Origin: Trichocoleus desertorum NBK24
GTDB taxonomy: Bacteria > Cyanobacteriota > Cyanobacteriia > FACHB-46
Length of the DNA stretch: 64,000 nucleotides
Direction of reading: 5' to 3'
Assembly: GCF_030409055.1 (NCBI RefSeq)
Contig: NZ_CP116619.1
Coordinates: 3,759,628-3,823,627, forward strand
Part shown: positions 26,414 through 44,979 of the stretch, one piece after another
Layout: the number at the start of each line of letters is the position of its first letter
Position numbering within the stretch: the first letter of the stretch is position 1
Translations under genes and position numbers: made by a program
Notes under the pieces: generated by a model
Told to the model about the DNA's origin: nothing
Database searches by the model: none
What the model saw: the letters and a program-made list of their open reading frames with translations, nothing else

Positions 26414-26872
26414 ATGAACTCAGTCCAAGCAACGACCTGGAACCAAGCCCAGCAGACCTTAGAAACAGTTTGGGGTTATTCGTCTTTTCGCCCGCCGCAG
26501 GGTGAAATTCTCCAGAGTTTGTTGGCTCAGCGAGATTCTCTAATTGTGATGCCGACGGGTGGGGGGAAGTCGCTTTGCTTTCAACTACCCGCCTTGCTGC
26601 AAACTGGTTTGACGCTAGTCGTCTCGCCCCTAGTAGCGCTGATGGAAAACCAGGTGCAAGAGCTACAAGAACGCCGTCTGCCTGCGGCTCTACTCCACAG
26701 CGAACTGCCGATTCGACAGCGCAAGCAAACCCTATGGGCGCTAGAACAACAAAAGCTGCGGTTGCTGTACCTCTCCCCAGAAACGTTGCTGAGTCCCGCC
26801 GTCTGGGAAAGATTATGCCAACCAAACTTGAGAATAAATAGTTTGGTTTTGGATGAAGCTCATTGCCATTAG
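26414..26872 (+). pseudogene. recQ: recQ, 5' part, cut at the DEAH box by the mobile element
   Basis: Codons 1-151 of an ATP-dependent DNA helicase RecQ. Motif 0 (WGYSSFRPPQGEI), Walker A (PTGGGKSLCFQLPAL) and VVSPLVALMENQV are intact. The reading frame matches RecQ through DEAHC at 26852-26866, then runs into element DNA and stops after one His codon at 26872. Motif II is therefore the last intact motif, and this fragment alone cannot be a helicase. The rest of the gene resumes at 44980. Only the two residues normally found here (Ile-Ser of DEAHCIS-W) are missing between the halves. Confidence 0.95.
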
Positions 26873-26924
26873 AAACGCAAAATTACATATAAATCATTAA
26901 TCACTTACAAGTAAAGGCTTTTGC

Positions 26925-26941
26925 TATGAGCTAATAGCTTA
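26925..26941. repeat. Left subterminal inverted repeat of the element
   Basis: TATGAGCTAATAGCTTA. Its reverse complement recurs with a small change in the 3-nt centre at 44902-44918. The arms TGAGCT and AGCTTA are themselves nearly palindromic, as expected of a binding site for a tyrosine recombinase. It lies just upstream of the first recombinase gene, so it may also act as its operator. Confidence 0.7.
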
Positions 26942-26972
26942 GAATCGGGTTTAGTCTCATTGGTGGTAGCTC

Positions 26973-28376
26973 ATGGCAAGGGCATATCGAATGGTAGCTA
27001 GACCTGGGGGGGTGGATCATGGGCATCCCTTTTTGGTTTATAACTGCCAACAGCAGCTTCACTATCCTCTGACTCGATTTAGCAAGTTCGCCGCTAAGTC
27101 TCGCACCCTCGCCACAGTCCGGGGCTATCTGTACGCACTTTTACCTTACTTTACCTGGCTCGATACGGACTCTAGGCAGGTTCAAGCTCAGCGACACTGG
27201 CAAGAGCCTCCAGAGCAAGTGCGCTTTGCTGTAGATGACTATTTGACCCAGCAAATGTGGTGCCAGATCGGGGAACACCCTGTTGGCTTTCAAATGGTTT
27301 ACCGAACCGGAAAGACCCCCGCCGAAGTCCGCACCTTTTTAACCGCTCTCAAGTGCTTCTATAAGCTCATGAAGCGGAACGGGTACTATTCCCATCCCAA
27401 TCCCCTGATTGACCCCTCAGCCGAGATGCTAGCGGCTCTGGAGGCCGAAAGAGACAATGTCAATCAGATACCCCGAATGCCGGACATTAGCGGGGTTGAA
27501 AAGCCTTCGCCTAGAAAACGCCTAACCGATAGCTATTTCAAGCTGGAAAGCGATGAGTGGGTGCCCCAAGTAATTGATAACCCTGATTTTCCTAGGCTGA
27601 TTCTAGAGGCTGGGCGACAATTGCCCAATTGGGGTTTAAGGGAAGAGTGTGTTACTCATTTACTTTTTGAATCCGGCGGACGGATTTCAGAAGTAGTCGG
27701 GCCTACCCTAGAAGACTGGATGAAGCTGGGGCTGAAGCAAGAAATTAGCACTTTTAGTAAACGTAGCAGAGGCAGACGAGTTAAAGTCTTACGGTTTTCT
27801 AACGAGACTTGCAAATTCTTGTGGCGCTACTTTAATACGGAGCGGATTAAGTTTGATTCGGGCGGGTATACACTTTACGACTATCAAGAGCAGGCAAGGC
27901 TAAAGCAGGTGGATTTAAGCGAAGTTCCGCTGTTTTTAACCATGCAGCGTACACCGTTCAGCCCGCAAAACTATCGTGACAATTACTGGAAGCCTGCTTG
28001 TGCTGTTGCTGGCATTGAGGCCGACTTACATCAAGCCCGTCATTGGTACGTCACCAATGCTATCCGACAAATTTATGCGGTTGCTGGCACTGACCAGGGA
28101 GAAGTGGAACGCTTAAAACGAGCGCTCCAAGAGTACATGAAGTGGAAAAGCGATGACACCATTAAGGCTTACGACCACTTCTTTGACAGCCTCGCTCACG
28201 CCAAGATTCAGGACGCGGTTCATAAACAGATGGATTGGGATCTTAGCCAGCAACTAGATTCAGCGAAAACTGAACCGCGTCAATCTTTTGAAGTCTACCC
28301 ACAGGTTTCAGCACCTGGCCCATTGAACCCACCGGAAGATGAAGACTTCGATTATCTTCGCAGGATAGGAGGTTAG
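26973..28376 (+). CDS. Tyrosine recombinase, TnpA-like
   Basis: A 467-residue phage-integrase-family recombinase. Catalytic residues by motif: Arg237 in ESGGRISEV, His353 and Arg356 in LHQARHWYVTN, and the nucleophile Tyr400 in TIKAYDHF. The N-terminal part (about 30-135) is the SAM-like core-binding domain. It is longer than TnpA of Tn554 (about 360 residues). It stands first in a three-gene run, 6 bp ahead of the second recombinase, so it is translated from the same mRNA. It catalyses strand exchange at one end of the element together with the second recombinase. Confidence 0.9.
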   Translation: MARAYRMVARPGGVDHGHPFLVYNCQQQLHYPLTRFSKFAAKSRTLATVRGYLYALLPYFTWLDTDSRQVQAQRHWQEPPEQVRFAVDDYLTQQMWCQIGEHPVGFQMVYRTGKTPAEVRTFLTALKCFYKLMKRNGYYSHPNPLIDPSAEMLAALEAERDNVNQIPRMPDISGVEKPSPRKRLTDSYFKLESDEWVPQVIDNPDFPRLILEAGRQLPNWGLREECVTHLLFESGGRISEVVGPTLEDWMKLGLKQEISTFSKRSRGRRVKVLRFSNETCKFLWRYFNTERIKFDSGGYTLYDYQEQARLKQVDLSEVPLFLTMQRTPFSPQNYRDNYWKPACAVAGIEADLHQARHWYVTNAIRQIYAVAGTDQGEVERLKRALQEYMKWKSDDTIKAYDHFFDSLAHAKIQDAVHKQMDWDLSQQLDSAKTEPRQSFEVYPQVSAPGPLNPPEDEDFDYLRRIGG

Positions 28377-28382
28377 TTCAGA

Positions 28383-30572
28383 GTGGTTAATTCAAAGCTC
28401 GATAATCAAACAGATGCTTGGCAACGTCTAGAGGAGAAGATTTCTCCACTTGTCCTACAAGCACCCAAAACAGGTGGAGACCCACTAGGTAAATGGACTA
28501 AGGTGCATGACAAACTGGTGTGCTATCTAGAGCGCAATACTCTGGGCAAACCCTGGGCAGATCATCTGGCACTGATAACTGCTGTCATGGTGACTCATCA
28601 TCTACAGATCAACTCTATTCTGTGTGTATTGAGATCTCTGAATGGTCGTTGGGACAAACTCTTTCCAGCTCTAGGGCTGCAAACCCTAACGGATTGGGAG
28701 GGCGAGAAGCACATGCGAATGTATTTGGAATTGGAAGTTCTACCTGAAGATAGTCCAATCACCCGTCTTGGTTTTTGGAGAAATTACGGAACAGCGGTTA
28801 CCCACACTCATCGTTGGTTAAAGTCTCTCCCTGAATCAATTCAAGCGAACTATCATCCCTTTATCCTGCCCTATATAGACTCCAGAGAGGTTGAAGGTCT
28901 CATCAGTGATAAAGAAATTCAAGAACGTCAACGGCAAAAGCGCAAGTCAGAAACCGATGCCCTAATGCCTCATTTCTTACGAATTCGTGCTCAGGCTCAT
29001 CTTCGCTACAACAAGATTTTGCGTCTGCGCTCCTGCTGGTTTCAAGCCCTTCAGACTATCGTTGAACAGAATTTGCCGTTCCCTTTCACCTTTTCCTATG
29101 AAGAGGGACAAGAGCGATTGCATTTTAAGGTGTGGGATCGCCGCAGTTTTGTAATTGCTCATGCCTCTGACTACCATTCAAGCAGCGTTAAGAAGGCTTT
29201 TGCAAGAGTGGGAACGTTTGTAGACGAGCGGAATAGACCATTCTTAGAATTTATCAAGGCAGAGCGTTTGAGTGATGAAGCTTCACCAGAAGGATTTTGG
29301 TTCGAGGACATGCTCCGTGTTGGGGTTATTGGGCAGGCTGGACAACGGATTGTAGATCAAGAACTTGCGGAGCAACGGCAGGCTTGGCTGAGAAACTGGG
29401 GTTACGGGGAGGAAGGTTCGGATAAACTGTCCGCTCCATTTAGAGTGGCGGCTCCTGAGGTTCTAAGTTGGAGCCAAAAAGATGCTGTATTTATTGCTCA
29501 AGCACAAATAAAAGCCAAAGGGGTTTTATTTCCTGTAGAAGCCTTGTATGTAGCTGCTGTGTTTGGGCTTCTAGCAGTGGAGTTATTCACGACAACCGGA
29601 ATGCGTATTAATGAACTTTTGCAAGTTCGTCTCAGCAAGGATGCGTTTACCCGTGTCGAGATTCCACCTACTACGGACGGACAACCCCCTTCTTTTCGCC
29701 ATGCCTTTCACCTAATTCCCAAGGGTGAACGTACAGACAAACCGCATGACTACTTCATTGCTCAAGAAACAACGCGCTTGCTGGTAAAGGTCGCCAAAAT
29801 GTTGCAGGAACACTATGCGATCAACCTGGACAACGGTGAAAGTCTACCTGCTGTGCCGTTTAATCCTGGTCAGAGCAGATCTCACCGATTCGGGGACGCA
29901 CCCTACCTTTTTCAATACAACTATACCCATTTCCATGATCGTGACATTACCGCCTGTATTCGATTTCTGCTACATGGAATGGTATTCAAAACTAGGGAGG
30001 GCAAACTAGTTGTCTTGAAGGCACACTTACTGCGACACGGCTTTGCAAACCATGCCGTTCAAGTTGAGAAGGTGCCCATCGATATCGTAGGAAGCTGGTT
30101 ACATCAGAAAAACACAGATATCACTTGGTACTACGCACAGGCAACCGAAACCCAAATTTCAGAAGCTTCTGACCTGTTCTTGGCACGGCTCTCTAGCCAC
30201 TTCAACCTGGGGGAATTCATTATCCGCTCTCCGGAAGAGTTACGGCAACAACGGGAAAACGCTTTGAAGCGGATCGGAACCTTAAACCCAGTAAACGGTG
30301 GAGACTGCACGTTTCATTCCGCTTGTGTACATGGCTTAACCTGTAACGGTTGCGTTCACAAAGTACCAGATCCCTCTAAACGCTATCAGGTCGAAGGAAA
30401 ACTAGACTGGGCAAAGGTTGGGTTGGCATTCTGCACTAAAGAAGGTTTACGCCCTGAAGCCGAGCAAATGAAAGAGCTTATCCGCAGGTGTGAAGTTGAA
30501 CTTCTAGAGATGGATCAGATTAAGCACTACCAGGAGGATGAAAACCGTGACGCTACCATCTGCATCGAGTAG
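28383..30572 (+). CDS. Large tyrosine recombinase, TnpB-like
   Basis: A 729-residue tyrosine recombinase. Catalytic motifs: Arg408 in TTGMRINELL, His548 and Arg551 in AHLLRHGF, His574 in SWLHQKN, and nucleophile Tyr583 or Tyr584 in TWYYAQAT. The N-terminal 380 residues include a basic, charged stretch near 178-190. After the catalytic domain comes a Cys cluster (C642, C648, C654, C657) that may bind zinc, as in TnpB-type proteins. TnpB of Tn554 is about 630 residues. It overlaps the next gene by 35 bp, so the three are translationally linked. Confidence 0.9.
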   Translation: MVNSKLDNQTDAWQRLEEKISPLVLQAPKTGGDPLGKWTKVHDKLVCYLERNTLGKPWADHLALITAVMVTHHLQINSILCVLRSLNGRWDKLFPALGLQTLTDWEGEKHMRMYLELEVLPEDSPITRLGFWRNYGTAVTHTHRWLKSLPESIQANYHPFILPYIDSREVEGLISDKEIQERQRQKRKSETDALMPHFLRIRAQAHLRYNKILRLRSCWFQALQTIVEQNLPFPFTFSYEEGQERLHFKVWDRRSFVIAHASDYHSSSVKKAFARVGTFVDERNRPFLEFIKAERLSDEASPEGFWFEDMLRVGVIGQAGQRIVDQELAEQRQAWLRNWGYGEEGSDKLSAPFRVAAPEVLSWSQKDAVFIAQAQIKAKGVLFPVEALYVAAVFGLLAVELFTTTGMRINELLQVRLSKDAFTRVEIPPTTDGQPPSFRHAFHLIPKGERTDKPHDYFIAQETTRLLVKVAKMLQEHYAINLDNGESLPAVPFNPGQSRSHRFGDAPYLFQYNYTHFHDRDITACIRFLLHGMVFKTREGKLVVLKAHLLRHGFANHAVQVEKVPIDIVGSWLHQKNTDITWYYAQATETQISEASDLFLARLSSHFNLGEFIIRSPEELRQQRENALKRIGTLNPVNGGDCTFHSACVHGLTCNGCVHKVPDPSKRYQVEGKLDWAKVGLAFCTKEGLRPEAEQMKELIRRCEVELLEMDQIKHYQEDENRDATICIE

Positions 30573-31317
30573 TGAAGGATCGGAAGCACCCAAATGGTTG
30601 CAGGACAAGGTTTACAGTCCCAAAATGGAGCGTACTGTCCGGTTAGTTAAAGAGAGTGTAGACGCGCTTATACAGGCGAAGCAGACAGTTTCCAAAGCTA
30701 CTGTTGTAGCAAAGTCGAAAGAGCTTGACCCGGAAGGGCAAGGTGTATCTGCCAGCGCCATCAAACGTAATGCGGATGCCTTTACATATTATGAAAAGTA
30801 TCGCAGTTACAAGGAACCTCAAGGAAGGCGTGTAGTTCCCGCTAAGCAACCTATCGAGATAGACGCGCTCCGGATTAAGCCTAACCGGGATGAAAACCGA
30901 GCACGGCAACGTTACTTAAAACTAACTAAAGAACACCTAGTAGCACGCCTTATTGCGGTCGAGAATGCCCTTGCCCAGCAGCAGGAATGCTGGAACCAAA
31001 ATAATGACGAGTTGCTCAGCCAGCTCTTAAAAGATGAGGAGCTGGCTGAGTCTCAAGTTGATGGCTTAGACAACAAGACCCAAAAGCTGATCGCCGAGAA
31101 CAAGCAATTAAAAAGTGAAAAGGAAAAGTGGCAGACAGAGAAGAGGGAATTACAGTCTCGTCTGTTGGGGCAGGAGTCGTTAGAAGCTGAAAATGAGAAG
31201 CTCAAGAAGGAGGTTTCATTTTTGATGAAGCGGTTGACTAGCATCACCGTTGAGAACGAAGCGATCAGGTCGTCCAAACAAGCAGTACTAACGGAAATTC
31301 CAGATATACCCTTTTGA
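30538..31317 (+). CDS. TnpC-like coiled-coil accessory protein
   Basis: A 259-residue protein. The first ~130 residues are basic and contain VSKATVVAKSKELDPEG and VSASAIKRN, suggesting a helix-turn-helix-like DNA contact. Residues about 135-235 form a long coiled coil (ENKQLKSEKEKWQTEKRELQ). Position and layout match TnpC of Tn554 (about 125 residues), which is not catalytic but affects orientation and efficiency of transposition. It starts inside the end of the TnpB-like gene; a GTG at 30547 is a possible alternative start. Confidence 0.75.
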   Translation: MKTVTLPSASSSEGSEAPKWLQDKVYSPKMERTVRLVKESVDALIQAKQTVSKATVVAKSKELDPEGQGVSASAIKRNADAFTYYEKYRSYKEPQGRRVVPAKQPIEIDALRIKPNRDENRARQRYLKLTKEHLVARLIAVENALAQQQECWNQNNDELLSQLLKDEELAESQVDGLDNKTQKLIAENKQLKSEKEKWQTEKRELQSRLLGQESLEAENEKLKKEVSFLMKRLTSITVENEAIRSSKQAVLTEIPDIPF

Positions 31318-31681: not shown

Positions 31682-32740
31682 ATGATTATGTCTAGCCCCA
31701 CGCTTGCCAGCATAGATGGTGTGGCTTTTAAGCGTCAAGGGGTGCCATTTAAGCATTTTTTAGGTACTTCCAACGATACTGATGAGGAAGAATCGATCAT
31801 CGGAACTCTAGAACCTCGACAAAGGCTTTTAGCGCTTACCGAACCTCAGCAACGGGTTGTTAAAGCTGTTCGCAAGTATCCAGGCAGTGATGCTAAGACG
31901 CTTGGCAGCATCTTTGGCATATCGAGGTACACTGCCCTCGCACAGCTAAATAGGTTGGTAGATCCTAAAAACGTTCTCCAATCTAAAAAAGGCCATAAGC
32001 CTAAATCTGGGGCAAAAGCAACGCTTTATTTCTACCTGGCAGAAGATATCTCAGCTGACTTAGTCGATACAGTTTTTGGTCCAGTTTTTGAATTAACCGA
32101 TCTATTGCAAGATGTTGGAATTTCCCCACCGACGAAGCAACAGACTCGCTCTAGCACGAAAGTAATCTCTAACTCAAGCGATCCTGCTTTATCGTTCGCA
32201 ACCATGCCCTCCCCGGCACAAGAGTTAGCTATTGCGCTTGCAAAAGCTGGAGACCAGGGGATTACTGCTTGTGGGCTTAGAGATATCACTGGACAAAATA
32301 TAAGAAGGGTTTCCGAACGATTGAAGTTCTTGATGGAGCATGAGCTAGCGAGCCGCAAAACCATTCTTGGTTCTAGGGCCCGCTATACCTATATTGCTAC
32401 CCCAACTCTCAAAACAATAGTTGAGCAGTTTACTCAAGAAGAGATAGGCATTTCACAAGCTACGCCTTCTTCTAACGTCGATGTACGCGATCAGCCTCTA
32501 AGCCTTACTATGACAGTCAAATCATCTGACCCTTCTTCACCCCAAGCATCTGAAGATACTCTGTCTCAAGTACTCAAAGAAAATCAACAAATGCTGCACG
32601 TCATGGCCGAGATGGCACGAAAGATTAATGAGCTAGAAAGTCGCTTTGAGCGCATTGAAGTAGCTGTAAACGGCAAGCTCACGCTTCAAGTCACAGACAT
32701 TTTGGCAATTTTGCATCCTAATCGAAAACCTCTGGGCTAA
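31682..32740 (+). CDS. Two-winged-helix DNA-binding protein with coiled-coil tail
   Basis: A 352-residue protein. Residues about 52-110 (LTEPQQRVVKAVRKYPG... GISRYTALAQLNRLVD) form one winged helix. Residues about 180-240 (ELAIALAKAGDQGITACGLRDITGQNIRRVSERLKFLME) form a second. Residues about 295-335 form a coiled coil (LKENQQMLHVMAEMARKINELESRFERIE). AGGAGG lies at 31669-31674. No known family is recognised. It could be a regulator of the element or an accessory factor binding its ends. Confidence 0.75.
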   Translation: MIMSSPTLASIDGVAFKRQGVPFKHFLGTSNDTDEEESIIGTLEPRQRLLALTEPQQRVVKAVRKYPGSDAKTLGSIFGISRYTALAQLNRLVDPKNVLQSKKGHKPKSGAKATLYFYLAEDISADLVDTVFGPVFELTDLLQDVGISPPTKQQTRSSTKVISNSSDPALSFATMPSPAQELAIALAKAGDQGITACGLRDITGQNIRRVSERLKFLMEHELASRKTILGSRARYTYIATPTLKTIVEQFTQEEIGISQATPSSNVDVRDQPLSLTMTVKSSDPSSPQASEDTLSQVLKENQQMLHVMAEMARKINELESRFERIEVAVNGKLTLQVTDILAILHPNRKPLG

Positions 32741-32781
32741 GCGGTGAGGTCAAACTAACCTCACCGCTTGCCGTAGCCTAT

Positions 32782-32847
32782 GGGCGGCGACTGGCCCTCC
32801 TGCTCTCCTAAAGCCTCGGAGGAGGGGTTCAATTCCCCTGCCGTCCA
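32782..32847 (+). tRNA. Compact 66-nt tRNA-like gene, anticodon loop CTCCTAA (CCT, Arg)
   Basis: The 7-bp acceptor stem GGGCGGC/GCCGTCC pairs fully (one G-U). The T arm AGGGG-TTCAATT-CCCCT is perfect and is followed by discriminator A. The anticodon loop CTCCTAA is closed by GCT/AGC, with an outer CCTCC/GGAGG pairing. A normal D arm is missing: only 34 nt lie between the acceptor and T stems, against about 43 in a standard tRNA. CCA is not encoded. Acceptor and T arms are so well preserved that selection or recent origin is likely, but whether it is charged is uncertain. It could also serve as an attachment-site mimic. Confidence 0.6.
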
Positions 32848-32883
32848 CAAGCTTGTATCGACATGCTAATACAAACCTATCCC

Positions 32884-33117
32884 CTAACCAATCCCATAGT
32901 CAGTAAAGAGCTGGGCAATTGATATATCAAGTGCTTTTGCTAGCCTATTTATAATGTCTAAAGTAGGGTTTGCGTCGCCCCTTTCAAGATTAGAAATGTA
33001 AGTGCGGTGAAGTTCAGCTAGCTCAGCCAGCTTCTCTTGAGAAATATCTAATTCTCGCCGCCGTCGCCGGATGGCCTTACCAAAACGTTGTCGGATTTCT
33101 TGCTCATTTTGCGTCAC
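32884..33117 (-). CDS. XRE-family transcriptional regulator (C-protein-like)
   Basis: A 77-residue protein that is a single Cro/CI helix-turn-helix domain: QEKLAELAELHRTYISNLERGDANPTLDIINRLAKAL. The HRTYISNLERG helix is typical of controller proteins of restriction-modification systems and of small phage-type regulators. It is transcribed away from the gene at 33218. The 100-bp space between them holds two CAATTG palindromes, probably its operator. This suggests that it controls the operon 33218-35261, or at least its own synthesis. Confidence 0.88.
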   Translation of the reverse strand: MTQNEQEIRQRFGKAIRRRRRELDISQEKLAELAELHRTYISNLERGDANPTLDIINRLAKALDISIAQLFTDYGIG

Positions 33118-33187
33118 CGCATAATGCTGCTAGACGCTGAGCTACTTTTCCACAGTTAGGTAACCAAGTTTTGTCCGAATCAGTCTA

Positions 33188-33213
33188 CAATTGACATCAA
33201 TCCCTTGCAATTG
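33188..33213. promoter_or_regulatory. Candidate operator: two CAATTG palindromes 20 bp apart
   Basis: CAATTG occurs at 33188-33193 and 33208-33213, centre-to-centre 20 bp, which puts both on the same DNA face. The second lies 4 bp before the ATG of the gene at 33218. The site is between that gene and the divergent XRE regulator, the place expected for its operator. Inferred from position and symmetry only. Confidence 0.4.
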
Positions 33214-33217
33214 AGAA

Positions 33218-33529
33218 ATGCCTTCGGCGCGATCCTATTCGGCACAATTACTGCCAGAGGGTTTTCCTCACCAGATTCCTCAGCCAAAGCTAGGTATCGG
33301 GGATCGCGTTAGATGGCACCCAATCCCGGCCCAGGATTTTGGTACTGTGACAGGGCTGCAATATACTCCAGCAGAACACCTCAAGTCCTGGGCTTGGCGT
33401 TACTTAATTTGGCTTGACCCTCAATCGCCTTCCTTCGCTTGGACTTGTACAGATGCCGCCTGGGAAGCTGACTTGGAATTACTGGCTACCGCTCAGTGCA
33501 ATACCACTATTGAGGTGGGTCAGGAGTGA
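33218..33529 (+). CDS. Unknown 103-residue protein paired with an HTH protein
   Basis: A soluble protein with the segment KLGIGDRVRWHP...FGTVTGLQY, which looks like a small SH3-like or KOW-like beta barrel. The rest contains a Trp-rich stretch (LKSWAWRYLIWLD). Its stop overlaps the GTG start of the next gene (GTGA), so the two are translated together. Similar HTH-linked pairs are known to me only as cyanobacterial hypothetical proteins. No function is assigned. Confidence 0.7.
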   Translation: MPSARSYSAQLLPEGFPHQIPQPKLGIGDRVRWHPIPAQDFGTVTGLQYTPAEHLKSWAWRYLIWLDPQSPSFAWTCTDAAWEADLELLATAQCNTTIEVGQE

Positions 33530-33846
33530 GCCTACGAGACTTAGGACAACGAGAGATCGCTTTATTGAGGCTCTACACTCGTTGTCAGTTAGGCATGTCA
33601 CCTCAAGAGTTCTACGCCAAGTGGAACGTGACTCACGCTCAGATAGCTCAAATCTGTAGTTGCTCTGAACCCACGGTTGATCGCTGGTTTGCCAGAGCTA
33701 AGAATTACCGTCCACCCGAAGTAGTTTACCTAAGACGACTGGCAGAAATGGATTTGCTGTGGGAGTCGTATGAACAAATTCCTCCAGCGTTTAGACAGGT
33801 GCTCTGCCCGCCAACCTCCGACAATGGACAAGAGCTATCACCGTGA
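33526..33846 (+). CDS. Helix-turn-helix protein, 106 residues
   Basis: Starts with GTG overlapping the previous stop. Residues about 22-60 (MSPQEFYAKWNVTHAQIAQICSCSEPTVDRWFARA) form a helix-turn-helix of the type found in transposase-like and sigma-like DNA-binding proteins. Probably a DNA-binding regulator working with its upstream partner. Confidence 0.75.
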   Translation: MSLRDLGQREIALLRLYTRCQLGMSPQEFYAKWNVTHAQIAQICSCSEPTVDRWFARAKNYRPPEVVYLRRLAEMDLLWESYEQIPPAFRQVLCPPTSDNGQELSP

Positions 33847-33921
33847 TAGCAAAGGTTTGTCTGAGCTAGCTACAGGACTTACTGTGAGAGCAGTCTAAGG
33901 ATTTTCAGTTCTCCAGTACCA

Positions 33922-34578
33922 ATGACCATCCAAATCACCTTGGAGCATCGCCGTCTTCAGTTGTCTCAGGAAGAACAGGCACTTGCTAAAGCTGCTACCA
34001 GTAGGAATGCTTTACGTAGAGAATTTAAGGCTCAGATAGCTGACAGGCGCTTAACTTACGCTCCGGTCAGTGTTTTTCAGCTTCGCAGAGACACTCTGAA
34101 GCGAATGATCAGCAAGTACTCAGAGCAACTAGTCTACCGACCGCTAGAAGAGATGCAGTACTGGTTCACCTACTCCAGCGGCGCTTTTATCGAACCAGGG
34201 TATCAACCTCTGTACTACCTGCGCTCAGAAGGACGAGTCATTACGCCGAACAAAAGCGCAATCGCAGGGATTGGTGAAGGGGTTGCGGGGTTTTTGGCTC
34301 AGCGCTTCTACCACTGCCGGAAGCTGGCCCGACCTAACCACGACTATCCTGACATTGTGATGGGAGGAAGTGGAAACACTTATCTCATTGAGTCTAAAGC
34401 AACGACAGGATCAGCTATGGAGGCCCAACAGGTCATTGAAGAAGAAGTGGCGCGAATGGCCGTTTACACATCTGCTTGTGCTGAGTTGGATTCGCGGCCT
34501 GTGGTTGGGGTTTTAGTCGGCACTGCTCTTATGAGTGAAACGGACTACCGTTGCTACATGACTGAGGTGGCAGTATGA
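33922..34578 (+). CDS. Putative PD-(D/E)xK-type nuclease
   Basis: A 218-residue protein. Residues 117-119 (Gly-x-Glu in GIGEG), Pro143-Asp144 and Glu157-x-Lys159 (YLIESKAT) follow the order and spacing of the PD-(D/E)xK nuclease fold: an upstream helix acid, an Asp at the end of a strand, then ExK on the next strand. The N-terminal 70 residues are rich in basic helices that could contact DNA. It overlaps the next gene by ATGA. With the C-protein-like regulator upstream, a restriction or defence role is plausible. No methyltransferase is seen nearby, so this is not a classical R-M pair. Confidence 0.5.
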   Translation: MTIQITLEHRRLQLSQEEQALAKAATSRNALRREFKAQIADRRLTYAPVSVFQLRRDTLKRMISKYSEQLVYRPLEEMQYWFTYSSGAFIEPGYQPLYYLRSEGRVITPNKSAIAGIGEGVAGFLAQRFYHCRKLARPNHDYPDIVMGGSGNTYLIESKATTGSAMEAQQVIEEEVARMAVYTSACAELDSRPVVGVLVGTALMSETDYRCYMTEVAV

Positions 34579-37380: not shown

Positions 37381-38135
37381 GTTTTTGGTCGTCACAAACT
37401 TTAAGGCTTCGTCTTCCTAATTTGATCACGCCTTTTAACGCTGATCGAATTGAATCAGCATCATATGAATTGTGTTTAGGTGAGGAAGCTTATATTTCGT
37501 CCCTTCCAGATACACCTATAAAGGACAGAAAAAAATTTTTTATTAAAGAGCGAGAAACAGTTGCCATTCCGCCAGGACAATTTGCGTTTCTCATAACTTT
37601 TGAAACAGTTACTGTTCCCGATAATGCAATCGCATTTATTTCCATGAAATTTGGGATAAAAGCAAAAGGAATGGTTAATGTTTCTGGCTTTCATGTTGAT
37701 CCAGGTTACAGTGGTCGTCTGATTTTCGCGGTATATAACGCTGGACCATTAAATTTTCATGTTCAGCACGGTGATCGGCTCTTTTGTATATGGTTTGCAG
37801 ACTTAGATGATAAAGATGATTCTCCACATAACAAGCCAGGTTTTGATTCGATTCCTACTTCATTAATGAATTCTCCAGATGCAGTTTCGTCCCTTCCTTC
37901 TCTTGTAAAACGTTTAGACGACCTAGAGAAGAAAGTAGAAACTTATTCCGTTAAACAGGCTCTTATTTGGACTTTTGTCTTCTTCCTCGCGACAGCTTTA
38001 CTAAAACCTTGGCTAGATATGGCACAGAATTTTTGGCTTGGTTTAGGTAATATCAGACCCGAATTGGTGAAGCCAAATTCTACCGAAAAACAAGTAGATG
38101 AGCCTAAGAAAGGCCCTACGCAATTAGTTAAATAG
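37377..38135 (+). CDS. Membrane-anchored dCTP deaminase/dUTPase-fold protein
   Basis: A 252-residue protein. Residues 1-165 follow the Dcd/Dut fold: ESASYELCLG near 26, IPPGQFAFL near 64, and the nucleotide-binding block NVSGFHVDPGYSGRL at 101-115 with Asp108 and Tyr111. The catalytic Glu of dCTP deaminases (Glu138 in the E. coli enzyme, in VLEFYNSG) is Ala118 here (IFAVYNAG), and the Arg of the ARLG motif is Lys. A coiled coil (about 173-192) leads to one transmembrane helix (about 195-210) and a polar tail. Probably binds a deoxynucleotide at the membrane rather than deaminating it. Overlaps the helical gene upstream; a DUF1643 gene follows 4 bp later. Confidence 0.8.
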   Translation: MSFWSSQTLRLRLPNLITPFNADRIESASYELCLGEEAYISSLPDTPIKDRKKFFIKERETVAIPPGQFAFLITFETVTVPDNAIAFISMKFGIKAKGMVNVSGFHVDPGYSGRLIFAVYNAGPLNFHVQHGDRLFCIWFADLDDKDDSPHNKPGFDSIPTSLMNSPDAVSSLPSLVKRLDDLEKKVETYSVKQALIWTFVFFLATALLKPWLDMAQNFWLGLGNIRPELVKPNSTEKQVDEPKKGPTQLVK

Positions 38136-38139
38136 CTCA

Positions 38140-38727
38140 ATGATGCGACAGGACATAAGGAGTTCGAGCTATCGCTATCTGCTATCACGAGATATTGCGA
38201 TACCATCGAACCGTACTTTGTTGGTTTGCATGCTAAATCCCTCAACAGCAGATGAGCAAAAAGACGATCCAACGATTTCGCGGGTGTGCCGTCTTGCTGA
38301 GAACGGAGGGTTTAATCGGTTGCTGGTTTTAAATCTTTTAGGTATTCGTGCTACTAACCCTGTAGATATTTGGTTACATGAAGATCCCTTAGGAGCAGAT
38401 AATTGGCGAGCCTGGGATAGCGCTTTAAAAGAATTAGTTCCAGATAGAGATAGCATATCTTTGGCTTGGGGACGTGCTCCGACGCAGCGTAATCAGTTGG
38501 TGAAATTCACTCCTGTCTTAGTTGAAGCAGCACGTCGGTTAAAGGTTTGGTCAGGGCCACTTATGACTTGGGTCCAAAACCTTGATGGTTCGCCCAGACA
38601 TCCGCTTTATATTCGTGTCCAAACAGAGTTACAGGCCTATGATCTTGATAGCTATGTGGATAGGGTCTTAAAGCACCACAACTGCCCACCTTCTGACGAA
38701 TTGAAAGGCTCGTCTAATGCTAAGTAG
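38140..38727 (+). CDS. DUF1643 family protein
   Basis: A 195-residue protein matching DUF1643, with the signature MLNPSTADEQKDDPTISRV near residue 30 followed by GFNRLLVLNLLGIRATNP and a late SLAWGRAP. The biochemical role of the family is not established; its members are common on mobile elements. It starts 4 bp after the Dcd-like gene, completing a three-gene operon. Confidence 0.85.
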   Translation: MMRQDIRSSSYRYLLSRDIAIPSNRTLLVCMLNPSTADEQKDDPTISRVCRLAENGGFNRLLVLNLLGIRATNPVDIWLHEDPLGADNWRAWDSALKELVPDRDSISLAWGRAPTQRNQLVKFTPVLVEAARRLKVWSGPLMTWVQNLDGSPRHPLYIRVQTELQAYDLDSYVDRVLKHHNCPPSDELKGSSNAK

Positions 38728-39670
38728 TCATCACCACCAAAAGCAAGGCTATTGAGAGGCTGTTCTTAAGGCAATCACATCCACTTTGATCATGGGACGA
38801 TATTTGTCCTAAACAACCGTTACAGCAATTTTGAAATTACAAGATGTAGTGATCAAGTCATAGGATCGCGTAATAGTTAGCTTAGCAAGCACAGCGATCC
38901 CCTCATCCATGAGCAAGTGAGCCTTGAGTCCCTTCACGGTAACGGTCAGTCAACCCGGTTCGGTAGGGGTTGACGGATGGAAAATGCCGTGCGATTAAGA
39001 TGTCTCTAGGGTGAGGGGCAGGAGGCTGTAGCTTCCCCTCCACTCGCTTCGTTTCGCCCCTCGCCCTTCACAGGTTGAATCGGCACGGCATTTTTCAAGC
39101 GGCGCTATTGACCTGAGCGGGATGGCGCGGATCGCCTTGACTAATTCAATTGTTGAAATCTTCTAAGTGCGGGCAAACTGAAACTCTTTTTGGCTTGAAC
39201 CTGGCAAGCCATGTAAGTAGTCTCTACCTGGTGCTGAGTCTGACTGAGACTACAATAGTTAGTATCAGAGAGAAGCGCCGCCCTTTAGTTCATTGTAGTG
39301 AACTTGACCAACGCTTCCCTTACTTGCATCGGTTTGACGATCCTTCACTTCAGAACACGCCCTCTACAGCAGTCTGGAATGTTCGGTCATCGGTTTAATG
39401 CAAGTACAAATACCTATTTTAGGTCTAGAACCTAATATTGATACTTTGTTCATCTCAACCAAATGGATGAGTTATTCGATTGCGGCTGGGTTGAAGGCGA
39501 TTGCGTCATAGTTACGTGACACTCTAAGAGAAGCTATTCCAAAAGGCGAGAGAAGCTGCTCAGGCTATGGATATAGAGCTTTTATAGACGCTCTCCCTCT
39601 GTATAGACGTATACCTATCATTCTTGATTTATCACAAAAGATGATGGTCTACAGTTCTATGTGAACCGCC
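38728..39670. other. 940-bp region with no convincing gene
   Basis: Contains the long inverted repeat at 38980-39096 and two very short protein-like frames of low credibility: minus strand 38809-38937 (GTG start, LKAHLLMDEGIAVLAKL) and plus strand 39398-39511 (MQVQIPILGLEPNIDT). Near 39585-39625 TATAGACG occurs twice around CTCTCCCTCTG. Probably eroded gene and insertion remains. Confidence 0.4.
38980..39096. repeat. Long nested inverted repeat (hairpin-forming)
   Basis: Outer arms GAAAATGCCGTGCGATT (38980-38996) and AATCGGCACGGCATTTTTC (39078-39096) are inverted copies differing by two indels. Inner arms AGGGTGAGGGGC (39008-39019) and GCCCCTCGCCCT (39056-39067) pair with one mismatch. The whole 117 bp can fold as one interrupted cruciform. 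It could be a MITE-like insertion, a bidirectional terminator or a protein-binding site. Confidence 0.65.
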
Positions 39671-39952
39671 ATGTTGCCTTTAGTTTTGTCTCATGAGCTA
39701 GTACATCCGTTTAAGTTTTGGCATCACAACGAGATTTGTGAAGGCATGTACTCCGGTGCCGAGCTGTACCGCCTCTGCACGACTTACCAGGCTGAAGATA
39801 GGCAAAAGGCTTTTTGCTTGGCCCTAAGTTTGTCGGAACACGGTGCTCAAGTTTGCATTACTGCCATGAGAAATGAATACAAAGTTTGGGTGGGGCTAAG
39901 AAATTCGCCTACGGCTGCACTGACTCCATTAGAAGAGGCGATCACAGCTTAA
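39671..39952 (+). CDS. Small protein, 93 residues, unknown
   Basis: A soluble protein with HELVHPFKFWHHNEICEGMYSGAELYRL in the first half and an Ala/Leu-rich second half (KAFCLALSLSEHGAQVCITAMR). The composition supports a real gene. No domain is recognised; HELVH is reminiscent of a metal site, but the context does not support a peptidase this short. Confidence 0.6.
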   Translation: MLPLVLSHELVHPFKFWHHNEICEGMYSGAELYRLCTTYQAEDRQKAFCLALSLSEHGAQVCITAMRNEYKVWVGLRNSPTAALTPLEEAITA

Positions 39953-39981
39953 GCTTTGGTCGTGAGATCGCCGCAAATGCA

Positions 39982-40110
39982 ATGCCCCGCTCACAGCGTG
40001 AAATACTGTCCAAACCTAATCTGCGATTTAAGCTACCTGAGCCGATCAACTTAGAGGACTTTAGGCCAGCAAAAGCACCGACTAGTTCACTAGTCTATGG
40101 TTGGAGTTGA
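39982..40110 (+). CDS. Very small protein, 42 residues (tentative)
   Basis: An open frame starting MPRSQREILSKPNLRF and ending SSLVYGWS. Its composition is protein-like and the frame extends further upstream over the end of the previous gene. No good ribosome binding site is seen. It could be a real small gene or the tail of a frameshifted longer version of the upstream gene. Its end overlaps the convergent gene by about 20 bp. Confidence 0.3.
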   Translation: MPRSQREILSKPNLRFKLPEPINLEDFRPAKAPTSSLVYGWS

Positions 40111-40410
40111 AGCTTCATTCTCTTTTGGTCGGATTGCCTTTTGGTAATTCTCCAGCGTTACCTCATCCGGGCTTGCACCGTGCTGAGCCATTACCTGCTT
40201 AAAATGCTCCCACTGCTTCCGCTTCTCAAACCACTCCTGACAAACCTCTTCAACTAGGGCTTTGTTACTGCTGCTTAGGTTCTCGTTGGGAATATTTAAG
40301 GCAAGAATTCGGGCCACTTTGAACGCTTTTTCAAGCTCTATTCCCCACTTGACCAGCTCTGCGCGATACTTTCGTTCTTGCTGCTGGGTGGGTGAGAACC
40401 TTTCTTCCAC
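40090..40410 (-). CDS. Helical charged protein, 106 residues, unknown
   Basis: A hydrophilic, mostly helical protein beginning MEERFSPTQQQERKYRAELVKWG. Rich in Glu, Lys and Gln, without membrane segments or Cys motifs other than one Cys (EEVCQEWF). No family is recognised. Confidence 0.6.
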   Translation of the reverse strand: MEERFSPTQQQERKYRAELVKWGIELEKAFKVARILALNIPNENLSSSNKALVEEVCQEWFEKRKQWEHFKQVMAQHGASPDEVTLENYQKAIRPKENEASTPTID

Positions 40411-40559
40411 GAGGACTCATAGTAACAACTACTCTATTTAAGTACCTTAAGATACAAAATCGCCCTAACTAAAGGTAGAGTTTGCTTAGCTCGATCTTTA
40501 AGGTGTCTATGCCATAAGTATTAGAGCTTAAGTAGACGTGTTTACAGGAGCAGAGAGAA

Positions 40560-40961
40560 ATGAGCCAGCGGTCATTGCTGCTGGGACAACGAATCCTTGT
40601 GGTTGATGATGATATTGACACCCTTTTTTTGCTAACTTTTATGCTTGAGGAATGTGGAGCAGAAGTGGCTACCGCACCTTCAGTTGCAGAAGCAATTGAG
40701 CTATTTAAGGATTTACACCCTACTCTGCTCATCAGCGATCTCGGCCTCCCTTTTGAGGATGGTTTCTCCCTCATTCGAGAATTACGCACCTTGGAGTTAA
40801 AGCTAGGGTGGCAGGTGCCAGCTATTGCTTTGACAGGTTATGCAGGAAAAGAAGCGCGGGAACAAGTGTTAGAACGGGGATTTCAGAAATACCTCACGAA
40901 GCCGATCCTTCCGGACGCATTGATAGAGGTCATCGTTCAACTTCTAGGGCAGTCTGAATAA
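40560..40961 (+). CDS. Single-domain response regulator (CheY-like)
   Basis: A 133-residue receiver domain with nothing attached. It has the acidic pocket VVDDDID near residue 15, phospho-acceptor Asp in LLISDLGLP near 60, Thr in ALTGYAG near 96 and Lys in YLTKPI near 119. All residues needed for phosphorylation are present. No kinase lies in the element, so it must use a host kinase. An AGGAG precedes the ATG. A decayed partial copy lies at 43277-43372. Confidence 0.9.
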   Translation: MSQRSLLLGQRILVVDDDIDTLFLLTFMLEECGAEVATAPSVAEAIELFKDLHPTLLISDLGLPFEDGFSLIRELRTLELKLGWQVPAIALTGYAGKEAREQVLERGFQKYLTKPILPDALIEVIVQLLGQSE

Positions 40962-41115
40962 GTAATGAATTGCTGGGACAAGAAATAAGCGGGTAAATCC
41001 CCCCATAGGCAGAAATCACATCTTCTGCCAGAATAGGGAGTATAAAAGCCGTCAGCTAGCCTTTAGTACCCGAAGCAAATATTAAAACCGTTAGCTGGCA
41101 TTTAATATTTCTGAA

Positions 41116-41152
41116 CAAGCCCTGGTCTAGTGATCGGGGCTTTGTTCTTTTG
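41116..41152 (+). terminator. Probable terminator downstream of the response regulator
   Basis: CAAGCCCTG pairs with CGGGGCTTTG around a 9-nt loop (one mismatch), followed by TTCTTTT. It lies 155 bp after the stop codon. Just before it are two diverged copies of a ~27-bp sequence (around 41044 and 41083, core GTTAGCTGGC/GTCAGCTAGC). Confidence 0.55.
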
Positions 41153-41178
41153 CGGTCGAGACACTTGAGCTTGGAGCG

Positions 41179-41385
41179 TCAGCTCAATTCTTTTAAATGG
41201 TTAACAAACTCAAGCCCTTTTTGATTTGCTAATTCCAAGGCAAAGCTACAAGCCGTAGAGTAGTCAGTCTGACTAGCGAGAAGACGACCCTTGGTAGAAT
41301 CTGCCTCCTGATCCGAGTACAACCTGACCGCAGTTCTATCAATGTAAATTGAATAAAGTGTCTGCTGTGTACTGTTGACGCTCAT
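41179..41385 (-). CDS. Small protein, 68 residues, unknown
   Basis: Begins MSVNSTQQTLYSIYIDRTAVRL and ends NQKGLEFVNHLKELS. Beta strands then a helix (STACSFALELANQKG) suggest a small alpha/beta domain. No family is recognised. It is convergent with the response regulator and its terminator. Confidence 0.55.
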   Translation of the reverse strand: MSVNSTQQTLYSIYIDRTAVRLYSDQEADSTKGRLLASQTDYSTACSFALELANQKGLEFVNHLKELS

Positions 41386-41639
41386 TCAATAAAGCTTGTA
41401 GGGAACGGTTTTATTTTCTGAAGCAGACTCAGCAAATTAGAAGTATCGCTAGGAGTATTCCTTTTCTACGTCTCTAGAAATACAAGTGGGAGTATTTAAG
41501 GGCTATCGTATGTGTAAGCAATATTACTCGCGTGCTCATAAGGTGAATGCCATCAGCTTTTGGTCACTGAGCTAAAACGGTTCACTATAGGCTTCGCTTC
41601 TCTCAAAAGCGAGCTATGTTACGTGACTCAGCTACTTGA
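41386..41639. other. Intergenic region, nothing recognised
   Basis: AT-rich sequence upstream of the small minus-strand gene at 41179. I see no hairpin or credible frame in it. Together with the gene fragment that follows, it makes a gap of about 420 bp without an intact gene. Confidence 0.4.
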
Positions 41640-41831
41640 TCAATTATTCTGACCACTGCTCCAGTTACTAGCATCGGAAAGTTTGTTACGTTATGGCCTA
41701 CGGTTAAGAACCGGATCGCCACATCTCTCCCAGACCACCCCGCAAGCGCTAGAGGGCTAGAGTTTCAGCGCTACCAGTGGGCTGAGATGAAGAAGATGTA
41801 TGAGGCTGAGCTTACTCAGCTAGCAGCCTAG
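41640..41831 (+). pseudogene. 3' remnant of a lost gene
   Basis: An open frame of 63 codons reads like protein at its end (RIATSLPDHPASARG... EFQRYQWAEMKKMYEAE), but it has no ATG, GTG or TTG near its start and a stop lies just upstream. It is most simply the tail of a gene whose beginning is gone. The end overlaps the convergent gene at 41812. Confidence 0.3.
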
Positions 41832-42102
41832 GAAAAAAAGAAACCTCTATGTCACCCAGGGTGCCACTTAGTATCAACTGTGTTAGAGGTAAAACACTAC
41901 CAGTGTGGACAACTTCTACGACCTCATCCCAGTCCAGCTCTGTGGCACCTTCTACCTTAGAAAAATAGACCCGACACTTATAGAAGTTACATTCTAGGTT
42001 TCCAGTCATTCCCCTCCGACCTTTGGAGTCTATGATGATCGATCCTACGGGTACTTGACTAAGCGGTTTTATATTCTTTGAAGCTGGTTGGAACGTAGTC
42101 AT
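41812..42102 (-). CDS. Small protein, 96 residues, unknown
   Basis: A soluble, beta-rich protein starting MTTFQPASKNIKPLSQ, with KCRVYFSKVEGATELDWDEVVEVVHTG in the middle. The composition is convincing. No known domain is recognised. It is divergent from the frameshifted small gene at 42195. Confidence 0.55.
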   Translation of the reverse strand: MTTFQPASKNIKPLSQVPVGSIIIDSKGRRGMTGNLECNFYKCRVYFSKVEGATELDWDEVVEVVHTGSVLPLTQLILSGTLGDIEVSFFPRLLAE

Positions 42103-42194
42103 AGTAAGCCGTTGCGCTTCTTCAAGTTTTCATTATTTAACTAGTGTTTTAACCCAACAGCGCCAAGAATAAACCGCCCAAGGGTATAGGCAGT

Positions 42195-42354
42195 ATGTCT
42201 TTGAGGTATGTAGTGAAGCTTACACTCGATAGATGAAGCTCTCGGTCTTAATGTTTGGGGAGAATTTACAGTCGTTGCCTACGTCGAGCGAAATGATCAG
42301 CCGCCTGTACGGGTCACTCGCTATCTTGATTTACCAGGTCGCCCAACTGCGTAA
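42195..42354 (+). pseudogene. Small gene broken by (or using) a +1 frameshift at AGA-TGA
   Basis: ATG at 42195 reads MSLRYVVKLTLDR and meets TGA at 42234-42236. Skipping one base there continues without a break as EALGLNVWGEFTVVAYVERN to a TAA at 42352-42354. Together they make a coherent 52-residue protein. The slip site, a rare AGA codon followed by TGA, resembles sites of programmed +1 frameshifting (release factor 2 uses CTT-TGA). A simple frameshift mutation or a sequencing error explains it equally well. The 3' end overlaps the convergent rhodanese gene. Confidence 0.45.
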
Positions 42355-42903
42355 TAGTCGATTATCCAATGGCTTTAACCGTCCCAACTTGGAAGTACGG
42401 ACAACTTCTTTCCCTTCAAACGGGATCTTGGTGGTGACAACATCCAGCAGTGGACCCAACTCAAACACGTTACTGTACCCGTAAGCTTCCAGAGAAGTGT
42501 AGGTGGAGAGGTTGAGAGAAGCCGCAGGTGCTTTTGCGGCAAAAGCAGTCTGACTACCTTCAAAGTTGTTATTGCAATAAATGAGAACCTTAGTGTCCTT
42601 GCTGGGAATTACAGCAGCCAGGGATTCTTCGGTAAATTCTGTAAACGGCAGATTGATCGCGCCTTTGATGTGCCGGAGGTTGTATCTAGCTTCACTACGA
42701 GCATCCAGCAGTACGATCCTTTGCTCTTTCATCATCGCCATGAACTGAGCTTCGGTGAGCCGCCTTGATTCTCGTTCTTCCGAAGACTGAACGACAATTT
42801 CCCTGAACTTGTCATAGTCAATCAGACGATTGGGGATCGTTTCTTGGGCACAGACTGGGACAGCAACCAGAGTAATCAAAGCGAGGGAAAGAGGAAGTTT
42901 CAT
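42331..42903 (-). CDS. Exported rhodanese-domain protein
   Basis: A 190-residue precursor with a signal peptide (MKLPLSLALITLVAVPVCAQ) and one rhodanese domain at about 50-185. The substrate motif RIVLLDARSEARYNLRHIKGAINLPF is typical, and the active-site loop IYCNNNFEGS contains the catalytic Cys. It should act in the periplasm or outside the cytoplasmic membrane, in sulfane-sulfur or redox chemistry. It is not a known partner of any neighbour. Confidence 0.85.
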   Translation of the reverse strand: MKLPLSLALITLVAVPVCAQETIPNRLIDYDKFREIVVQSSEERESRRLTEAQFMAMMKEQRIVLLDARSEARYNLRHIKGAINLPFTEFTEESLAAVIPSKDTKVLIYCNNNFEGSQTAFAAKAPAASLNLSTYTSLEAYGYSNVFELGPLLDVVTTKIPFEGKEVVRTSKLGRLKPLDNRLLRSWATW

Positions 42904-43041
42904 AGGCTTGCAGTTACTTAATCAATCAGGGTTTCTGGTAGGTCTAGGTATCATTTTTGACCCCCTACCATATTACCGCTCAGTCTAACTCTGCCAATTT
43001 CGACTGAGTAGAGTAGAGGATCAGTTTCACTTCATTGCCTG

Positions 43042-43270
43042 GGAGGGGGACAAACCTGCCCAAAAGCTAAAGCCATGAAGCTTTCTAGCCTCTCAACAGT
43101 TAAAGTGATTGATTCCACTTTTGTAGCTTCTTGATTTCATTCTCAACTAGTAAAAGCTGAGTCCCTACTAATTCCGTTATTGAGCTCCCAGGCCTTCTGC
43201 CAATTTTCCTACAGGGTAGTTGCTTGGAACGTTTATCCAGACAGAGCTTGAGCTATGTTTGTCCCCCTCC
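43042..43270. repeat. 14-bp perfect inverted repeat around decayed DNA
   Basis: GGAGGGGGACAAAC (43042-43055) and GTTTGTCCCCCTCC (43257-43270) are exact reverse complements separated by 201 bp. The right arm ends 6 bp before the decayed response-regulator fragment. The arms could be ends of a small inserted sequence. Confidence 0.55.
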
Positions 43271-43278
43271 AGCTTCAT
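43100..43278 (-). pseudogene. Small frameshifted gene, minus strand
   Basis: The ATG at 43276-43278 reads MKLEGDKHSSSSVW. In another frame the sequence continues as LDKRSKQLPCRKIGRRPG and VENEIKKLQKWNQSL to a stop at 43100-43102. Both parts look like protein and are joined by a -1 shift near 43240. No family is recognised. It begins exactly where the response-regulator remnant begins on the other strand. Confidence 0.35.
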
Positions 43279-43372
43279 TGCTTTAACAGGCTATGCGGAA
43301 AAAAAGCGCAGTAGAGAGCACTAGACCTGGGATTTCAGCAACACATTACGAAACCCATCCTGCCTTGGAGCG
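43277..43372 (+). pseudogene. Decayed fragment of a response regulator copy
   Basis: Reads IALTGYAEKKRSREH, a stop, then in another frame GFQQHITKPILP. It aligns in protein and DNA with the C-terminal half of the intact regulator at 40560-40961 (ALTGYAGKEAREQ... RGFQKYLTKPILP). The rest of the gene is missing. It is a leftover of a second, related receiver-domain gene. Confidence 0.7.
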
Positions 43373-43468
43373 CGATCTCAATTGACCCATAACTGAAGCC
43401 AGTGGTTCACCGTACCTGCGAAGCAGGGGGAAAGGTGAATCACTGGCAGTTTGAAAAACTAGGCTTGA

Positions 43469-43714
43469 TTAATTTTTCTTTCTGAAGTAAACAGACAAAT
43501 CGGAGGGCAATGAATCAACGATTGCTGTGAGACTTGCAGGAATTTCTCGGCTTTGCATAACCTGATTGATGTTGCCACCGCTATCTTTCCAAGCAGATAT
43601 CAGTAGTGGCAAGAGTCGTGCAAGATCGTACGCTGTCATGTTCTCTTGCGGCTCAAATATGTAGGTATTGCTTTGAGATCCGTGGAAGTATAGCTTAGAA
43701 CGAGAAAGACTCAT
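43469..43714 (-). CDS. Small protein, 81 residues, unknown
   Basis: Begins MSLSRSKLYFHGSQSNTYIF and contains MTAYDLARLLPLLISAW and a C-terminal basic KKN. Soluble alpha/beta composition. It lies 28 bp downstream of the next minus-strand gene (43743-44030), so the two probably form an operon. No family recognised. Confidence 0.55.
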   Translation of the reverse strand: MSLSRSKLYFHGSQSNTYIFEPQENMTAYDLARLLPLLISAWKDSGGNINQVMQSREIPASLTAIVDSLPSDLSVYFRKKN

Positions 43715-43742
43715 AGTTACTGTTCTTGATTTAGGCTTTAAT

Positions 43743-44030
43743 TTAGTCGTAATTTGAAGAGTTCATGTAGTGCTGCATCTGGGTGTTTGACTCCAGTTCA
43801 CTGTACGATTTCCCGTGTGCTGCGAGAATAACGGACTCCGCTTCTTCATCGTCAAGATGGCGCTCTTTAGGTCGTGTATTTCTACGGAAAATTTCCCACA
43901 GTTGCCCCCAACACCTTCCTTTTGTTAGCTTTTCCCAGTCAACCCAAAAGCCTGAATCAGCATATTGACTTTCTAAATTTTTCTTTAAACTTGCCGTCCA
44001 GCAGTCGAATTTTTCTTTTTCGCTAGCCAT
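43743..44030 (-). CDS. Small charged protein, 95 residues, unknown
   Basis: Begins MASEKEKFDCWTASLKKN and contains WVDWEKLTKGRCWGQLWEIFRRN, with many Trp and charged residues. Likely helical and soluble. Upstream member of the two-gene minus-strand operon with 43469-43714. No family recognised. Confidence 0.55.
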   Translation of the reverse strand: MASEKEKFDCWTASLKKNLESQYADSGFWVDWEKLTKGRCWGQLWEIFRRNTRPKERHLDDEEAESVILAAHGKSYSELESNTQMQHYMNSSNYD

Positions 44031-44345
44031 AGTTATTTTCTAAAGATTGAACCGAAAAGTTTTGTAAACCTTTTAAACGCTAGCGTGGAAATTGTTTTGA
44101 CTGCCTGCTAGTAATTACGGAATCTTGCTGCCAGCTTCACGCGAGACCGATAGTAGCTAAAAAATAAGAACTGAGCGTTAACTACGGAGCTCAGTCGTAA
44201 TATTTATTCACATCATCCAACTTCAAGACTTTACCTCGTAGAAAGACTAAAAAAGTGAAGTTCTTATCCAGTAAGCATTACAGCGATTTTATCAAAGATA
44301 AAGTGTCTAACAAAAAACTATGAAAGCCGCAAAGGAAACCTAGGT
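44031..44345. other. Intergenic region, nothing recognised
   Basis: About 315 bp between the divergent genes at 43743-44030 and 44346-44816. AT-rich; promoters for both are expected here but no clear site stands out. Confidence 0.4.
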
Positions 44346-44816
44346 ATGACAATGAAAAAGCGCTGGAAAGACGGAATAATCAGAGCTTATGAACTCTCCG
44401 TCTCTTTGGAGGAAGAGGCGCAAGACCTCAAAAAAATGTTGGAGCTTTACAAGTGGTGGCGCGATGGATGGCTCAACATTGTACAAAAAGCTGACTGTAT
44501 TGCTACGGAGCTATCAACCGAATTGTCAAATCTTGATTCGTTAATGCTGGAGTACGAAGCTTGGAGGACTACAGCAGACTCCGGAAAAGGGGCACCATAT
44601 GCTCTTACAGACTTTTGTAGCGACGTAAGTTTTGATGGATTGTCCGGTCTAAGTGAGGATATTGAGGGCTTGCTGCCAGAACCTAAAGTTGACTTTAATC
44701 CAATAAGTCCTGACGACTTAAGCACGATTATTGGTTCTATAGAAGAAATAAAAGAGGAATTGGCAGGATTCAAGGATTTAGATCCTCCTGAAGCTGTGAC
44801 TCACAGGAAGAGTTGA
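44346..44816 (+). CDS. Helical protein, 156 residues, unknown
   Basis: A soluble protein with an N-terminal helical half (about 1-75, SVSLEEEAQDLKKMLELYKWWRDGW) and an acidic C-terminal half ending in a short helix (IIGSIEEIKEELAGF). The last gene of the element; its stop is 163 bp from the right recQ junction. No family recognised. Confidence 0.6.
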   Translation: MTMKKRWKDGIIRAYELSVSLEEEAQDLKKMLELYKWWRDGWLNIVQKADCIATELSTELSNLDSLMLEYEAWRTTADSGKGAPYALTDFCSDVSFDGLSGLSEDIEGLLPEPKVDFNPISPDDLSTIIGSIEEIKEELAGFKDLDPPEAVTHRKS

Positions 44817-44901
44817 TCCCCCTTCTTCAAACCGCCTTACCCCTCCCTCACCTTTAGCAATCCGCCCCTGAAAGCTACCCCCAGACAACTCAAAAGGGAT
44901 A

Positions 44902-44918
44902 TAAGCTTATAGCTCATA
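44902..44918. repeat. Right subterminal inverted repeat of the element
   Basis: TAAGCTTATAGCTCATA, the inverted partner of 26925-26941. Only the three central bases differ. It stands 61 bp from the right recQ junction, nearly the same distance as its partner stands from the left junction. Confidence 0.7.
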
Positions 44919-44979
44919 TAAAAAGACTTGCTGGGAGAGGCTTTGAGGCTATTTTGAAAACATAAGTTAAAACCTAGCC

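Follow-up and report, generated by a model that had tools for sequence, protein, structure and literature searches.

The recQ gene interrupted in the window, a 64,000-nucleotide stretch of the complete 5.46-Mb genome of Trichocoleus desertorum NBK24, holds what is very probably a complete and potentially active Tn554-like transposon, which belongs to a clade distinct from Tn554 proper and sits in the codons for the DEAH box; the gene that it splits is a short paralog, one of several recQ genes in the genome. The insertion is defined by the following segments.

26414..26866, + strand: 5' half of the recQ paralog, ending in LVLDEAHC; 95% and 89% amino-acid identity to the intact RecQ of two congeners, with the frame continuing into the right half
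26861..26872, + strand: left junction, read from the sequence as recQ CATTGC followed by element CATTAG
26867..44973, + strand: Tn554-like element, 18,107 bp, delimited by the gap-free intact recQ genes of the congeners (loci L003 and L004) and by a paired subterminal inverted repeat
44968..44979, + strand: right junction, read from the sequence as element TAAAAC followed by recQ CTAGCC (Leu-Ala)
44974..45975, + strand: 3' half of the recQ paralog, starting at Leu-Ala-Gln-Trp, with Helicase_C and RecQ zinc-binding domains; assigned from the joined frame and the domains

In the junction alignment, 26414–26866 and 44974–45975 join to form one open RecQ frame split inside the DEAH box, as a preliminary description of this DNA had proposed. 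The reading frame of recQ meets CAT TAG directly after 26866 and restarts at 44974 with CTA GCC CAG TGG. That description called for empty-site recQ genes in close relatives, and two congeners, G002 and G001, have an intact gene (loci L003 and L004, 91% and 86% nucleotide identity) that aligns gap-free at the junction and encodes DEAHCLVQW and DEAHCLAQW, respectively. Compared with these genes, zero recQ bases were duplicated and zero were lost upon insertion. Only the dinucleotide CC is common to both flanks, which allows the break-point to slide by one base. The preliminary description had taken two codons (Ile-Ser, 6 bp) as missing because it assumed the usual DEAHCISQW motif, and had counted six bases as part of the element instead. 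Nearly all relatives of the interrupted paralog, by contrast, have DEAHC-L-(A/V/T/L)-QW rather than CISQW. The bases CTAGCC stand at the right junction, the element ends at 44973 and not 6 bp later at 44979, and the difference of 6 bp expected from the empty recQ of a relative is 0 bp.

The element is present once in the genome and is absent from both congeners. Its two ends carry an imperfect inverted repeat set slightly inward from the termini:

26914..26971, + strand: left arm of the subterminal imperfect inverted repeat; aligned over 60 columns with 44873–44929 in reverse complement, it matches in 44
44873..44929, − strand: right arm, paired with 26914–26971

This repeat outscored all of 500 shuffles; it links the two ends as parts of a single element and, judged from sequence, is a likely recombinase-binding region. 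At the extreme ends, an inverted repeat with 11 of 24 matches at offset +6 was not significant (P=0.77 for the best score over all offsets). AGCTCAT boxes, possibly a common recombinase-binding word, occur in the recQ target (26857–26866) and at the element ends (26923–26932, 26967–26977, and 44910–44917). A resemblance of the element ends to the recQ target based upon these boxes is suggestive only, as the best alignment score was not significant (P=0.36). The element matched no Rfam family, and no tRNA was detected anywhere in the 64-kb window.

A compact unit of three adjacent genes, all in one direction, occupies the left end of the element.

26973..28376, + strand: tnpA, 467-residue tyrosine recombinase; Arg237, Lys263, His353, Arg356, and Tyr400 invariant in nine homologues
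28383..30572, + strand: tnpB, 729-residue long tyrosine recombinase with a C-terminal cysteine cluster; Arg408, Lys447, His548, Arg551, and Tyr583/Tyr584 invariant in eight homologues
30538..31317, + strand: gene overlapping tnpB for a tnpC-like coiled-coil protein of 259 residues, identified by homology to the third genes of the trios of relatives

These results bear out the earlier proposal that a tnpA-tnpB-tnpC-like trio with recombinase motifs begins the insert. Pfam and NCBIfam gave only weak integrase matches for the trio. The tnpC-like protein is 35% identical to the product of the third gene of a Jeotgalicoccus trio (E=3e-25) and also matches its counterpart in a trio inserted in umuC (E=2e-15).

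Is the element a member of the Tn554 family? Tn554 and Tn558 of Staphylococcus and Enterococcus share with it the tnpA-tnpB-tnpC order at one end, a short and a long tyrosine recombinase, the conserved motif of a repair-annotated gene as insertion site, and the lack of target duplication. They differ in target (the HPSGD codons of radC, where Tn558 breaks RadC directly after AHSHPSGDP, rather than recQ) and in protein sizes (361, 637, and 121 residues versus 467, 729, and 259 here). Alignment by hhalign with genuine Tn558 (L063) gave 93% for TnpA and 89% for TnpB, part of which could come from the tyrosine-recombinase fold alone, and BLAST matches to the same proteins were marginal (E=1e-4 and E=0.027). 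Comparison of the TnpC proteins gave no profile similarity (2.8%) and no detectable homology, with a coiled coil in the same place. The element shows a subterminal inverted repeat, whereas papers on the Tn554 family disagree on terminal repeats, some stating that there are none (PMC3261861, PMC7843796) and another describing imperfect inverted repeats (PMC10214605). Thus, the earlier assignment to Tn554-like machinery stands with respect to gene order, the two recombinases, the absence of duplication, and the TnpA and TnpB profiles, but TnpC is unmatched and the clade is diverged; on the sequence evidence, the element is Tn554-like in the broad sense of PMC3414803 and falls in a diverged clade of its own distinct from Tn554 proper, to which the umuC-inserted plasmid elements and the Firmicutes elements also belong.

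The search for related tnpABC elements in other genomes, which the preliminary description had also suggested, recovered elements from Firmicutes, which have the closest proteins found, and next from enteric plasmids. All have the order tnpA-tnpB-tnpC, with identities of 28–40% for TnpA, 24–37% for TnpB, and 24–35% for TnpC. Close relatives of TnpA were found neither in genome_contigs nor in 59 cyanobacterial genomes, and close relatives of TnpB were not found in 390 cyanobacterial genomes. The Firmicutes elements (Lysinibacillus, Sporosarcina, Jeotgalicoccus, and Paenibacillus; TnpA 32–40%, TnpB 31–37%) differ from the recQ element in occupying other sites and having a shorter TnpC. In Lysinibacillus xylanilyticus (L046), a type II secretion ATPase-like gene lies at the end of the left flank, and no right side was found. 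Other Firmicutes copies adjoin genes without evident disruption. A Sporosarcina-like tnpABC element in the viral-collection contig L070 comes after a series of phage tail-like genes, so tnpABC elements may ride on prophages.

On enteric plasmids, elements of the same kind interrupt umuC (L037 and L038), a known hot spot (PMC8547460). These two-integrase elements, which include carriers of tmexCD-toprJ and CBASS, have the same trio order (TnpA ~29%, TnpB ~24%, and TnpC ~28% identity) and, like the recQ element, are inserted exactly and with zero loss in the conserved motif of a repair gene. They differ in their target, in other cargo, and in a TnpB of about 980 residues with an N-terminal extension. 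UmuC was split at TKTLA^K, where the caret marks the break, with no base lost, in four of four divergent alleles in which both junctions were read, and comparison with empty umuC plasmids confirmed zero gain or loss in one of these alleles. Three further left junctions (L038, L048, and L077) and viral-collection contig L071 fit the same split. Relatives of the element therefore use various sites, and the well-sampled group uses one conserved codon stretch. As to their cargo, a CBASS operon that includes NucC is found in the umuC-inserted element of the OXA-48 plasmid L037 (12637–23694), and the trio element of L038 carries tmexCD-toprJ.

How does this bear on target choice? The preliminary description had proposed specificity for near-invariant recQ codons and had regarded relatives at unrelated sites as evidence against it. 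Relatives at other sites do exist, yet the umuC group is site-specific, and the proposal is supported by analogy with UmuC TKTLA^K and RadC HPSGD but stands on one recQ insertion only. Insertion with little site preference, in which the DEAH box was hit at random, would agree with that single event, with the different genes and intergenic places occupied by relatives, and with the lack of a significant match between the recQ target and the element ends. Such a chance hit is nevertheless unlikely, because the umuC relatives lie at one conserved codon stretch in every allele examined and Tn554-type elements are site-specific (PMC3788773). By analogy with these systems, TnpABC-driven, site-specific insertion without target duplication, aimed at conserved codons, is well supported, specificity for the recQ DEAH codons is plausible, and Tn554-like elements appear to target codons that have almost no freedom to change in evolution.

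A broader generalization, which we hold tentatively and lean slightly against, is that separate Tn554-like clades each attach at the functional-motif codons of a widespread gene for DNA repair or DNA uptake: HPSGD in RadC, TKTLAK in UmuC, DEAH in RecQ, and perhaps a motif in a ComGA-like ATPase. In this scheme, the variable core would lie where sequence may vary, the invariant flanking codons would provide a target in almost every host, and integration and excision would toggle the repair gene. With radC, umuC, and recQ, three repair genes with motif-coding landing sites line up, giving a testable rule for the next insertion sites of elements whose cargo on enteric plasmids also includes drug-resistance pumps and genes for phage defence. 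In the literature searched, we found no earlier report of Tn554-like elements in cyanobacteria, to which the present element extends them, and none of recQ as a target gene.

While the element is inserted, this recQ paralog is inactivated. The paralog is present in most of the 390 cyanobacterial genomes scanned, and no second split recQ was found among the full-length matches listed from that scan. Two further recQ genes in the same genome are both intact, with motifs DEAHC-VS-DW and DEAHC-IS-EW. The split gene contains no frameshift, and comparison with G001 and G002 revealed no decay of its halves: with G001 as reference, nine nonsynonymous and 31 synonymous substitutions fall on the branch of the window recQ, compared to eight and 27 on the G002 branch. 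Hence, the insertion is recent or reversible, and the data fit both.

Reversibility recalls the nifD and hupL elements, an analogy drawn in the preliminary description, in which an element would be removed during development, here to switch RecQ on. The precise in-frame split, the recQ halves without decay, and the HetR homologue in the genome are consistent with programmed excision of this type. However, the nifD and hupL elements recombine between identical direct repeats, and no identical direct repeat beyond CC is present here; no nifD match above the cut-off exists in the genome (best 46 bits versus 654); the element is missing from both congeners; with two further recQ genes intact, no switch is needed; and recent insertion explains the lack of decay equally well. 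The analogy is thus weak, and we consider developmental excision highly improbable. Genomic islands of the GInt or SE type, which have three or four recombination genes and a 6-nt staggered exchange, are also cargo islands with a terminal recombinase operon, and precise insertion, a typical recombinase accompanied by a long one as described for them (PMC5385486, PMC10214605), and cargo partly of same-genus origin would all suit membership in this class. The published GInts and SEs, for which the 6-nt exchange is documented, differ in an additional recombination gene (GinC/Tfp), in imperfect repeats at their flanks, and in another gene order. GInts are recognized by three recombinase genes plus ginD, whereas the recQ element has two recombinases and one coiled-coil gene, with no third integrase (GinC/Tfp-like) before or after them, and its flanks share CC only rather than the 10–17-nt imperfect direct repeats of GInts. 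Assignment to GInts or SEs is therefore very unlikely.

For a Tn554-like transposon, insertion most likely takes the following course. TnpA and TnpB, aided by TnpC, would bind at repeated subterminal sites and, through tyrosine-recombinase strand exchange, join a circular form of the element to recQ at a short core, for which identity would not be needed and which would span about 6 bp by inference from work on Tn554 and SEs (PMC3261861, PMC10214605). Such insertion would be conservative, with host bases neither duplicated nor lost. Tn554 itself causes no duplication, has a circular intermediate, and leaves hexanucleotide junctions (PMC3261861, PMC10214605, PMC3788773). We infer a circular intermediate, recQ DNA as a preferred site, and present-day mobility for the element in the window.

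The left and right junction hexamers of the element differ. In Tn554 and SEs, the 6 bp of the target stay beside tnpA or intA, and the 6 bp of the donor appear at the far end (PMC3261861, PMC10214605). By this rule, CATTGC (26861–26866) would be the host core and TAAAAC (44968–44973) the passenger; the alternative, with CATTAG as passenger and CTAGCC as host core, fits equally. Carry-over of the donor's 6 bp as in Tn554 was not seen in the umuC relatives, whose terminal hexamers hardly vary from one target to the next and so do not decide which hexamer of the recQ element is foreign. For excision to restore recQ, the host hexamer would have to be kept; were the other one to remain, recQ would in both cases contain an in-frame stop (TGC CAT TAG or GCT TAA).

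The remainder of the element is cargo, about 13 kb in length.

31682..44816, unstranded: cargo region, including a winged-helix protein, a small HTH protein, and others
33922–35261: pair of uncharacterised proteins
36772–38727: 202-residue protein, dCTP-deaminase-like protein, and DUF1643 protein
40560–40961: response regulator
42331–42903, − strand: rhodanese

Several cargo pieces have DNA matches of 68–85% in the two congeners, and the cargo thus comes in part from the same genus. Ten cargo proteins were compared with PADLOC models, and no match was found. The three consecutive genes at 36772–38727 could be a nucleotide-related defence module; the dCTP-deaminase-like protein has a probable C-terminal membrane segment. 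By eye only, the first protein of the 33922–35261 pair has a PD...ESK pattern resembling that of PD-(D/E)XK nucleases. Just past tnpC, an 82-bp segment (31400–31481) is a small interspersed repeat with copies of 88–93% identity at 2.26 and 2.91 Mb of the genome. A 238-bp segment near the right end (43035–43272) has a second copy, 92% identical, at 4.64 Mb of this genome and a counterpart of 85% identity in G001.
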